This document shows, one piece after another, positions 3,766 to 17,571 of a stretch of DNA of 37,484 nt. The stretch is taken from NCBI GenBank assembly GCA_017557525.1, contig JAFYYN010000021.1, positions 1-37,484 on the forward strand, read 5' to 3'. Position numbers and translations under genes: made by a program. The notes below the pieces were generated by a model, which was not told the origin of the DNA, did not search any database, and saw nothing but the letters and a program-made list of their open reading frames with translations. This DNA is from Lachnospiraceae bacterium. Lineage in GTDB: Bacteria; Bacillota; Clostridia; Lachnospirales; Lachnospiraceae. The number at the start of each line of letters is the position of its first letter. The stretch's first letter is position 1.

Positions 3766-4009
3766 GGGCAGGCGGGTGTTTACATGGGATAAAACCATAA
3801 AGCGTGCAGAGGATATGCTACGTTTGCAGATGTATCGGAGCAAGGCAAAAATCGGTTATCCAAACCGATTTTTGAGTGTAGCACAAGTGCGTCCGGTATC
3901 AAGCGGACGCACGGTTGCAAACGTCCGAAGCGGAGATACGTATGAAAACGTATAGCATATCCCTGCTAAGCGGTAGTGGGTTTTAGACCATGTAAACACC
4001 CGCCTGCCC
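3766..4009 (+). ncRNA. Structured element copy A (putative RNA or MITE)
   Basis: The 412-bp gap between the reactivation gene and metF holds this 244-bp element. It is bounded by perfect 22-bp inverted arms (3766-3787 and 3988-4009), extended inward by a GA/GA tandem mismatch and seven more pairs. Inside are a long helix (GGATATGCTA at 3811 with TAGCATATCC at 3953), a perfect 11-bp hairpin with loop ATCCA (3847-3873) and a perfect 9-bp hairpin (GTGCGTCCG/CGGACGCAC, 3887-3912). The core matches the inverted copy at 17322-17571 with compensatory stem changes. It begins 10-12 bp beyond the metF stop and reads antisense to metF. A TATAAT box at 3708-3713 could serve a plus-strand promoter but I see no good -35. 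I do not recognise this as a named RNA family. Confidence 0.6.
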
Positions 4010-4018
4010 GTTCAAGAT

Positions 4019-4888
4019 TTACCTCGGTGCAATAAACGACAGATTTTTGAAGATCTCCCCCGCAATCTCCGGATGATTCATCGTATAGATATGCACACAA
4101 TTAACCCCATTGGCGAACAGATCGATAATCTGCTCGGTAGCATATGCAATACCTGCCTGCTTCATAGCCTCCGGGTTATCACCGTAATGATCAACGATCA
4201 TCTTAAAGCGGGGCGGAACCAGATTACCGGAAAGAGAAATGATCCTGCCGATCTGGGTTTTGTTGGTAACGGGCATGATACCGGCATCAATCGGCACATC
4301 GATCCCCTTCTTTAGTAGCTTATACATGTAGTTGTAAAGGATATTATTATCAAAAAACATTTGGGTGATCAGAAAATCACAGCCGGCCTCAACCTTTCGC
4401 TTGGTATATTCCAAATCCTCATCAATGGACTTTGATTCTGGATGTCCTTCGGGGTAACATGCACCTGCAATACAGAAATCGCCCATGGATTTGATCTCAG
4501 CCATAAGATCCTCAGAGTGATGAAAGTCCTTAGAAGGCTCGAAGCCGCTGTCTGCAGGAATATCGCCTCTTAGAGCAAGGATATTATTGATGCCGCAGCG
4601 TTTGTACTCAGAAATCATGTCCCTTACGGTCTGCTTGTCGGAAGAAACACAGGTCAGATGTCCTAAAGCAGGGATGTTGCAGACATTCTGTATTTCATTG
4701 GCAAGATCAACGGTATATTTGCTGGTACCGCCTGTAGCGCCGTAGGTAACGCTCATATAGTCGGGCTTAAGGGCAGCGGTGTCAGCAACGACCTTCTTAG
4801 CAGCCTCAAGGTTTTCCCACTTTTTGGGAGGAAAAAGCTCACAGCTGATATGTGGTTTGTTATCCTTTAAAAAATCGATGATCTTCAT
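4019..4888 (-). CDS. metF: 5,10-methylenetetrahydrofolate reductase
   Basis: MetF reduces 5,10-methylene-THF to 5-methyl-THF, the methyl donor for MetH encoded just downstream. The 289-residue product has the family's TIM-barrel landmarks: SCELFPPK near the N terminus, YMSVTYGATGG, a LALRGD segment, ITQMFFDN and a terminal segment NGVNCVHIYTMNHPEI. I start it at 4888, after AAGGAGAACCGTAAAT. A longer reading to 5023 adds 45 residues rich in Phe/Ile/Leu that precede the ribosome binding site and have no counterpart in MetF, so I reject it. Its stop lies about 10 bp from structured element A. Confidence 0.95.
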   Translation of the reverse strand: MKIIDFLKDNKPHISCELFPPKKWENLEAAKKVVADTAALKPDYMSVTYGATGGTSKYTVDLANEIQNVCNIPALGHLTCVSSDKQTVRDMISEYKRCGINNILALRGDIPADSGFEPSKDFHHSEDLMAEIKSMGDFCIAGACYPEGHPESKSIDEDLEYTKRKVEAGCDFLITQMFFDNNILYNYMYKLLKKGIDVPIDAGIMPVTNKTQIGRIISLSGNLVPPRFKMIVDHYGDNPEAMKQAGIAYATEQIIDLFANGVNCVHIYTMNHPEIAGEIFKNLSFIAPR

Positions 4889-5013
4889 ATTTACGGTTCT
4901 CCTTATTTGATGAACATATGAAATGATAAAAGACAGTAGAAATGTCAGCAGAGAGAAAAATATAAAGAAAAAATAAAATATTGCAATATAAGCAAAGTTA
5001 CACAGTTTTCTGC

Positions 5014-5042
5014 TTGCTAACAAATATCAAATATAGTATAAT
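5014..5042 (+). promoter_or_regulatory. Sigma-A-type promoter for the VanZ-like gene
   Basis: TTGCTA (5014-5019), a 17-bp spacer and a perfect TATAAT (5037-5042) lie 60 bp before the VanZ-like start, in an A+T-rich divergent intergenic region shared with metF. Confidence 0.65.
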
Positions 5043-15944: not shown

Positions 15945-17309
15945 ATGGGGAAACAAAAGAGTGTCTTTTTCTGCAAGGAATGCGGCGCCGAGTCACCAAA
16001 GTGGCTTGGACAGTGCCCAGCCTGCAAAGCGTGGGACAGTATGGTGGAGGAGCCTGTTGCGCCTAAGAGCAAGGCTGTTAAAACACCGAGCGGTCCAGGA
16101 CTTAAACTTAAGGCTGTTCCTGAGAAGCTTTCGCAGATAGAGACTCATACAGATACAAGGATCATTACCGGCATAGAGGAATTTGACAGAGTATTAGGGG
16201 GAGGGATAGTTGATTCCTCCCTTGTTTTAGTTGGCGGCGACCCCGGCATAGGTAAGTCAACTTTACTTCTTCAGGTCTGCAAGGTACTGGTCGGGATGAA
16301 GCTTAATGTGCTGTATATTTCAGGTGAGGAAAGCGTTCATCAGATAAAAATGAGAGCTGACAGACTGGGTAAATTTGAGGGAGAGCTGGAGCTCCTTTCA
16401 GAAACCTGTCTGGATAACATAGAAGAAATAGTTATTGAAAAAAGACCTAAGGTTGTGATCGTGGATTCGATCCAGACCATGTATCGAGAGGACATTGCCG
16501 CATCTCCCGGAAGTGTCAGCCAGGTTAGGGAGACCACAGGTTCTTTGCTCAGGCTCGCTAAGGGTTATGGTGTAACTATTTTCATAGTCGGACATGTGAC
16601 CAAGGAGGGTGTTGTGGCCGGTCCGAGAGTCCTGGAGCACATGGTTGATACCGTGCTTTACTTTGAGGGAGATAATTCGTCTGATTACAGGGTACTCAGA
16701 GCCGTAAAAAACAGGTTTGGTTCTACGAATGAAGTAGGTGTTTTCGAGATGAGGGGGGATGGCCTTAGAGAGGTCAGGAATCCTTCCGAATACATGCTTG
16801 CAGGTACTCCGGTGGGTGAACCGGGGTCGGTTATCACGGCGACTATCGAGGGTACAAGGCCTATAATGCTGGAGATACAGGCTCTGTGCTGCCAGACGGC
16901 GCTTAATATCCCAAGGCGTACGGCTGTGGGTATTGATTACAACAGGGTTAATCTCTTGCTTGCTGTTTTAGAGAAAAAACTGGGGCTTAAGCTCTCGTTC
17001 TGCGACGCCTATGTTAATGTTGCAGGCGGTATGAGGGTAAATGAACCGGCCTTGGATCTGCCTATCATTATGGCTCTGCTTTCCAGTTACTCGAATAAGC
17101 CTTTAGGGGAGAAAACGATCTGCTTTGGTGAGGTCGGGCTTACCGGGGAAATTAGAGGTGTTTCGCAGGCTGAGCAGCGCGTGACGGAGGCTAAGCAGCT
17201 GGGGTATGAGACTGTGATCCTGCCGAAGGTGAATATGAAGGCGGTGTCCGGCAGCGGACTTAAAATCGTTGGGGTATCGCATATTTCCGAGTTGATGAGA
17301 CTGTTCTGA
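15945..17309 (+). CDS. radA: DNA repair protein RadA/Sms
   Basis: A 454-residue hexameric RecA-like helicase that assists branch migration in homologous recombination. It shows the N-terminal four-cysteine zinc finger (C10, C13, C24, C27; CKECG...CPACK), Walker A GGDPGIGKST (97-106), the RadA-specific KNRFG motif (about 256-260), and a C-terminal Lon-like domain with ALDLPIIMALLSSY. radA after clpC is a familiar Firmicute order. disA, its usual next neighbour, is absent; structured element B begins 12 bp after the radA stop instead. Confidence 0.96.
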   Translation: MGKQKSVFFCKECGAESPKWLGQCPACKAWDSMVEEPVAPKSKAVKTPSGPGLKLKAVPEKLSQIETHTDTRIITGIEEFDRVLGGGIVDSSLVLVGGDPGIGKSTLLLQVCKVLVGMKLNVLYISGEESVHQIKMRADRLGKFEGELELLSETCLDNIEEIVIEKRPKVVIVDSIQTMYREDIAASPGSVSQVRETTGSLLRLAKGYGVTIFIVGHVTKEGVVAGPRVLEHMVDTVLYFEGDNSSDYRVLRAVKNRFGSTNEVGVFEMRGDGLREVRNPSEYMLAGTPVGEPGSVITATIEGTRPIMLEIQALCCQTALNIPRRTAVGIDYNRVNLLLAVLEKKLGLKLSFCDAYVNVAGGMRVNEPALDLPIIMALLSSYSNKPLGEKTICFGEVGLTGEIRGVSQAEQRVTEAKQLGYETVILPKVNMKAVSGSGLKIVGVSHISELMRLF

Positions 17310-17321
17310 GGTATCAAGGGG

Positions 17322-17571
17322 ACGGGTTAACGGATACAGATAAAAATACAAAACCGATTACCGCTCACAGGGATATGCTAATCGCCCAAATATGCATCTT
17401 TGCTGCGAACACTTGCAACCGTTCGTCCGCCTGATGCCGGACGAACTAGTGCTGCGTTCAGAAATCGATTTGGATAATCGATTTCTGCCTTGCAAAGATA
17501 CAAATTTTGACGAAGCATATCCAGCTGTTCGCTTTATGGTTTGTATTTTTACCTATATCCGTTAACCCTGT
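17322..17571 (-). ncRNA. Structured element copy B (putative RNA or MITE)
   Basis: This 250-bp element fills most of the 384-bp gap after radA. Long imperfect inverted arms (17322-17355 and 17538-17571) pair over about 30 bp. Read on the minus strand the core matches copy A: a hairpin with loop ATCCA on a 12-bp stem (17459-17487), a 9-bp hairpin GTTCGTCCG/CGGACGAAC (17421-17446), and the GGATATGCT/AGCATATCC helix (17514-17522 with 17371-17379). Stem sequences differ from copy A but remain paired. Two non-Watson-Crick positions in the arms are C-A and A-C on the plus strand but G-U and U-G on the minus strand, so the minus strand looks like the functional RNA, antisense to radA. Confidence 0.6.

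Follow-up and report, generated by a model that had tools for sequence, protein, structure and literature searches.

A dispersed, structure-defined repeat family of Lachnospiraceae with a forked palindromic architecture

Introduction

MITEs and composite repeats such as ERIC and BOX are non-coding, occur dispersed and fold into long stems close to the ends of genes. REP, BIME and REPIN sequences are described, in the parts of the literature used here, as intergenic, multi-copy and palindromic, often placed behind genes and patchy between species (PMC3733652; PMC6006769).

Here, we investigate two look-alike elements, copies A and B, in a 37,484-nt stretch of Lachnospiraceae DNA (contig JAFYYN010000021.1 of assembly GCA_017557525.1; in the following, the window), together with their relatives. 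Most copies span about 230-470 bp and form a long stem with two apical hairpins. As with the REP/BIME/REPIN sequences and their RAYT (TnpA-REP) enzymes, as far as covered by the above sources, the forked element is intergenic, multi-copy, palindromic, often found behind genes and patchy across species. It differs from these repeats, given there as 20-65 nt long, by its size, its two-hairpin head and its subfamily-specific arms. Likewise, the REP definition of a simple palindrome of 20-40 bp does not fit it, due to both its size and its two apical hairpins. With MITEs, ERIC and BOX it shares that it is non-coding and dispersed with a long stem fold near gene ends, but the family lacks the common terminal inverted repeat of MITEs, i.e., its arms differ between subfamilies. 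In some genera, the element carries C then GTC at one end and CA or CCA at the other and thus, relative orientation aside, resembles the CGTC-tagged REPs; these are likewise said to be without a dedicated transposase (PMC3733652) and differ in having stems of 8-9 bp and loops of 4-5 nt. The copies represent a family of REP/MITE-type repeats whose forked architecture is new; it is patchy in Lachnospiraceae and apparently not described before: no prior description of a forked-palindrome family was found in the literature searched, which leaves aside preprints and most subscription journals.

Results

The two copies of the window

The features of both copies and their neighbours are as follows, where 'strand A' denotes in the remainder the strand read as in copy A.

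3766-4009, plus strand: copy A, 244 bp; plus is the better-folding strand; limits read from the sequence
3766-3787, plus strand: 5' arm of copy A, 22 bp, perfect complement of 3988-4009; sequence specific to the copy or subfamily
3788-3796, plus strand: internal loop with tandem G.A (GA opposite GA at 3986-3987) and P2 strand, the latter pairing with 3979-3985
3811-3818, plus strand: 5' strand of P4, GGATATGC, pairing with 3955-3962; inner pairs near invariant
3840-3931, plus strand: forked apical domain, basis of the covariance models R1 and R2 and place of the model match
3846-3874, plus strand: apical hairpin HP1, loop ATCCA
3887-3912, plus strand: apical hairpin HP2, ATCA in its loop, which is also the commonest loop in other genera
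3988-4009, plus strand: 3' arm of copy A, ending 9 nt from the stop codon of the MTHFR gene
4019-5023, minus strand: MTHFR gene (metF)
15945-17309, plus strand: RadA-like ORF (Pfam)
17324-17568, minus strand: copy B, 245 bp; limits read from the sequence; 3' end 14 nt past the stop codon of the RadA-like ORF
17402-17493, minus strand: match of the apical-domain covariance model in copy B

Thus, the same end of the element faces the neighbouring stop codon in both copies. A preceding sequence-only reading had reported the two elements with their stems, loops and conserved single-stranded blocks, all of which are present, and had rightly seen no ORF in them. It had also described terminal arms that differ completely yet are self-complementary; we find arms of about 22 bp that differ between subfamilies and still pair.

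Both copies fold far better than shuffled sequences. For copy A, the RNA folding energy is -136.2 kcal/mol compared to a mean of -70.8 among 200 dinucleotide shuffles (z -13.1), and copy B reaches z -15.0 in the same setup. Folded as DNA, strand A of copy A yields -85.7 (z -16.2) and its complement -75.6 (z -13.5). Given these z-scores and the covariation reported below, chance is excluded as the source of fold and pairing. Among all 81 copies extracted from the genus, 80 show at least 24 pairs at the base of the predicted fold; the remaining one (L039) shows 12.

Strand A is the better-folding strand in most copies, both as RNA (77/81 within the genus, 56/72 from other genera) and as DNA (80/81 and 55/72, respectively), where elements from other genera outside 220-500 bp or containing N were dropped, leaving 72. 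In 31 of 80 copies, the internal loop by P2 is a tandem G.A; 27 have Watson-Crick pairs there and 22 have neither; the reverse complement of the G.A form was never found in these 80. This one-way tandem G.A and the better folding of strand A make the fold as a whole strand-specific, whereas the arms in other genera are strand-neutral (see below).

The sequence-only reading had not recognised a named family in the elements, which agrees with our screen: no Rfam 15 family matches the elements of the window at gathering score. In 20 stretches from other genera, RNase P and FMN are the only families to pass the gathering score, and both lie outside the elements. A known Rfam family is therefore rejected for every element tested. 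A microRNA model covers the element of locus L321 below the threshold.

Copies within the genus

A DNA search found 13 strong places in the genome of the window, including copies A and B (cores of at least 180 positions), and matches in 9 of the 24 genomes of the genus. The covariance model R1, which represents the apical 92 nt, yields 127 matches within the same 9/24 genomes (14, 11, 30, 20, 1, 22, 6, 4 and 19 per carrier), such that the further copies expected in relatives do exist. Of 87 profile matches in the genus, we kept the 81 with at least 180 positions, of which 80 are distinct and were aligned; reference rows were chosen by hand (59/80 in alignment A2, 44/62 in A1). Close paralogues carry the same arms, i.e., arms travel with the element, and otherwise the arms differ by subfamily. 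HP1 of this genus has A5/T5 at its base. Two short derivatives (L016, and L018 from the window's own genome) keep the arms and part of the stem and have lost most of the forked head.

Copies in other genera

Searched with plain DNA, 299 genomes of the family yielded the window's own genome only, and R1 provides weak but structured matches in other genera. We then used R2, a broader model of the forked head built from 19 curated rows. It matches in 19/397 genomes of the family, representing 16/334 genera, with 3 to 10 matches in several genomes. Applied to 391 genomes drawn from the class, some of them of the same family, it again finds the own genome only; both searches were run with Infernal's stricter filters. 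When named genomes were scanned with a pattern, 62 stretches were returned, of which 61 are in assemblies titled Lachnospiraceae, several of these from rumen or omasum according to their titles, and one (L117) in a contig titled Ruminococcus. The region beside the latter element shares 73% identity with the L018 flank along 1.4 kb; judged from this sequence, the Ruminococcus label may be a binning error. The degenerate pattern has no match in viral contigs (a close variant of it catches 49/81 copies), phages and plasmids hold no match to copy A, and plasmids none to the L244 element. On these searches, carriage by phages or plasmids is rejected.

Elements of all genera have in common the long stem, HP1, recurring junction bases and, for the most part, ATCA as the loop of HP2. 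Outside the own genus, the junction mostly reads CTGAG before HP2 and CGAAT after it. Since the flanking arms are not part of R2, we scored their pairing against 3000 control positions. Within the 78 matches from other genera, 70 exceed the 99th and 49 the 99.5th percentile of the control, and aligned arms reach 80-200 nt in many elements. The 8 matches below the 99th percentile include the single g86 match, which is without arms and doubtful, and 2 of the 4 g47 matches, also without arms. Under the same control, none of the 81 own-genus outer arms of 22 bp passes the 99.5th percentile and a minority passes the 99th. On reading, two further hits were judged to be false matches, namely a terminator-like repeat (L236) and a tRNA-like sequence (L242). 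Locus L343 was left out of the arm, gene-arrangement, leader, stop-codon and strand-fold counts for other genera.

Judged by eye, copies within a genome resemble each other along some 40-80 nt preceding the 5' arm in G275, G236 and G058. Such a leader-like stretch is seen at L285-L300, L301-L309 and L310-L316, is C-rich in G049 and was not seen in the own genus.

Covariation and arm pairing

Next, we studied whether the compensatory changes that had been noted between two copies hold at scale. Within the genus (59 copies), both partners have changed in 54 of the 61 pairs compared to 29.1 +/- 2.3 in shuffles, a value reached by 0/500 shuffles, where the copies are related such that these counts are not independent events. 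Overall, 95.6% of the cells pair, and sliding the partner strands against each other destroys the covariation. For 75 distinct rows from other genera, the covariation score is 0.912 vs. 0.231 in shuffles.

To what extent this reflects an RNA can be judged from the mismatches, i.e., from G-U (G-T) pairs relative to A-C. In the own genus, HP1 holds 2 G-U among 959 cells (99.6% Watson-Crick), and HP2 holds 5 G-U and 4 A-C among 800 cells (97.8%). The own-genus arms lean to G-U (78 G-U vs. 39 A-C; 38 vs. 18 when isolated), as does the apical domain of other genera (58 G-U vs. 18 A-C). Arm pairing in other genera (75-95%) falls well short of perfect in some of them. The isolated mismatches of these arms, i.e., those flanked by at least 3 Watson-Crick pairs on either side, comprise 53 G-T, 56 A-C and 107 others (78 elements). 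A count over all 8439 aligned arm cells, which takes in internal loops and flanks, agrees on this evenness: 85.9% are Watson-Crick, 213 are G-T, 210 A-C and 770 other mismatches, the latter about the share expected of random mismatches (71 elements, with duplicates removed and at least 40 aligned arm cells required). The even split between G-T and A-C shows no preference for either strand, which is what upkeep of the arms at the DNA level would predict.

We also compared 12 non-redundant pairs of close copies. They show 15 double Watson-Crick changes, of which 5 are transversions, and 45 single changes (20 G-U, 11 A-C, 14 other). Singles thus outnumber doubles, i.e., arms pass through mismatched states and correction is not immediate. 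By region, only HP2 has more doubles than singles (7 vs. 3); the outer arms show 26 singles, 5 double Watson-Crick changes and 5 other doubles. Adjacent double changes were observed 2 times vs. 0.30 expected (p 0.03). Template switching can yield double changes without RNA selection (PMC8794818). The hairpins treated there resemble our data in their double Watson-Crick changes, including the two adjacent ones; they belong to RNA genes, whereas here dispersed intergenic repeats are concerned and single changes are common too.

We favour, without considering it proven, an upkeep of the arms at the DNA level rather than RNA selection acting on one strand. The sequence-only reading took compensatory change as strong evidence for a selected structure. 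This stands insofar as the structure is maintained; a selected RNA does not follow from it as it stands, given the rarity of G-U in HP1, A-C being as frequent as G-U among isolated mismatches of other genera, and the alternative of template switching. The excess of single over double changes and the G-U lean of own-genus arms leave room for an RNA.

Position relative to genes

Elements are intergenic and often lie just behind gene ends, as judged from mechanical ORF calls (at least 80 or 100 aa; 100 aa for arrangement and site counts). Stop codons within 30 nt are found at the strand A 3' end for 19 of 55 distinct genus sites (by copy 36/81) compared to 7 at the 5' end (p 0.03). For other genera, respective numbers are 27/73 and 0/73, where elements below 220 bp were dropped from stop-codon and arrangement counts. 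No stop codon within 30 nt is observed for 29/55 genus sites and 46/73 other-genera elements. In other genera, a stop codon facing the 5' end is never nearer than 79 nt, such that the end bias there may partly be due to an asymmetric element, given the similar 40-80 nt before the 5' arm. Divergent gene pairs rarely flank the element (3/81 and 7/73), and the commonest arrangement (36/81 and 24/73) places strand A antisense to both neighbours. Where the 3' end faces a stop codon, the mRNA strand is usually the worse-folding one. Neither strand shows a consistent T-run at the element ends, which is why an intrinsic terminator is rejected.

Filled and empty sites

The possibility of a mobile family had been raised along with the question of empty sites, and such sites exist: orthologous positions are filled in some relatives and empty in others. 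Behind metF (420 nt read in 9 readable genomes; G011 unreadable), the element is present in G000, G004, G017, G007 and G020 and absent in G002, G006, G009 and G013. Behind the RadA-like gene, 12 loci out of 23 fetched were examined: G000 and G004 carry the element and the other 10 lack it. At the site of L058, an element of G011, the genomes G007 (92 and 76% identity in the flanks) and G020 (79 and 73%) have a 17-nt spacer devoid of a palindrome, and G014, which also lacks the element at the L085 site, has other DNA. In addition, three copies at unrelated sites of G011 are 95-97% identical, arms included. The combination of filled and empty orthologous sites with recent paralogues, as found for mobile elements, supports mobility of the palindrome family. 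On the other hand, 15/55 distinct genus sites are occupied in two or more genomes; a retained function would explain this as well as mobility does, and it is counted against the mobile reading.

Elements at some shared sites have diverged much further than the gene next to them; for L030 and L083, flanks are at least 91% identical, whereas the elements are not among the 45 most similar pairs and thus less than 76% identical. No target-site duplication was seen in flanks and empty sites inspected by eye, among which there is no close strain pair. That arms are copied from the target at insertion is not supported, since the empty L058 site is without palindrome and near-identical copies keep their arms across sites. 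Apart from the element, query positions 551-588 at L058 represent a 30-40 nt repeat that recurs with 97-100% identity at several places in G014 and G007.

Candidate partner enzymes

Neither a mobilising protein nor an autonomous copy was found. Of the 9 carriers in the genus, 7 have Y1 transposase genes, as do 5 of the 15 non-carriers (12/24 genomes in total), i.e., a weak association. Unlike in REP/RAYT systems, no forked element lies beside the transposase gene at any of 25 Y1 loci within the stretch read.

RAYT-type transposase genes (sorted by score and ORF length) were found flanked by GACGGTTC...TGTCA palindromes at four loci (L193, L201, L202, L203). Palindromes similar to GACGGTTC also enclose the forked element in the G011/G007 subfamily (L054, L058, L068, L073, L081, L084, L085), and in genus g74 they are part of the arms at 2 of 12 places (L322, L341). 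No RAYT-type gene was found in G004, G011 and G020 (incomplete genomes), which hold 33, 21 and 19 matches of the forked element. Some elements begin with CA before the arm and end with GTC after it, the latter in some genera only (8/9 elements in G049, none in G058).

Discussion

Our preferred, though tentative, interpretation is that copies A and B are non-coding, dispersed, structure-defined repeats of Lachnospiraceae, namely a giant REP/MITE-like non-autonomous mobile palindrome that is read as folded single-stranded DNA. The better-folding strand would be recognised via its forked head by a protein, either as single-stranded DNA or as an extruded cruciform. This protein would copy or move the element; a single-strand-handling transposase such as Y1/HUH is our leading guess. 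Template switching, or mismatch correction within the hairpin, might re-establish arm complementarity at the DNA level, such that arms could drift fast yet stay paired. The place behind stop codons is probably where insertion is tolerated and possibly affects the 3' end of the gene's transcript. We consider it unlikely that the family goes beyond this and forms a new class of mobile element, with a forked single-strand DNA fold, a protein of its own and one arm rewritten from the other, i.e., a palindrome inherited as structure and not as sequence.

The main rival is a structured functional RNA, either a small RNA or a cis element, on the better-folding strand and spread by duplication. The conservation of unpaired motifs and loops across genera, the high covariation score there and the better folding of strand A fit it well. 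So does the G-U lean of own-genus arms and of the apical domain elsewhere, as in an RNA, which counts against the DNA palindrome. Still, we regard an RNA as rather unlikely, though ahead of the two rivals discussed next: the long arms of other genera lack a G-U excess and HP1 has almost none, arms of 80-200 nt are hard to explain by RNA selection, and the commonest gene arrangement would make the RNA antisense to both neighbours. The DNA palindrome reading does not need the RNA.

If the element instead acted in 3'-end control, i.e., as a very stable hairpin that follows the stop codon by a few nt, stops exonucleases, ribosomes or transcription arriving from either side and is selected per gene, then the proximity of its 3' end to stop codons and the rarity of divergent placement would follow, as would its presence behind MTHFR in five species despite largely unalignable upstream flanks. 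Given that the same sites are empty in related species, that no T-run marks the element ends and that the mRNA usually carries the worse-folding strand, we find this improbable. Least probable among the readings considered are REPINs moved by the RAYT enzymes with GACGGTTC palindromes of the same genomes, with the forked head as their cargo. The enclosed G011/G007 subfamily, the same type of palindrome at RAYT-type genes and in g74 arms, and the CA and GTC ends point in this direction; against it, few of the copies read carry such palindromes and three genomes yielded no RAYT-type gene.

With 81 extracted copies in one genus and 78 matches in others, the family is a large natural set of long hairpins and thus a test bed for how palindromes stay matched. 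Its covariation is overwhelming and yet possibly not the result of RNA selection, which calls for caution when RNAs are discovered by covariation. If the family is mobile, a repeat that is widespread in gut and rumen has a partner enzyme still to be found.

Forked elements also occur as opposite-strand pairs. The pair at L289 has a 303-aa ORF between its elements (no Pfam match at E 0.001). Further pairs are located at L295, L300, L313, L316, L317, L320, L322, L333 and L334, with the two elements, as at L289, a few hundred bp to 1.7 kb apart.
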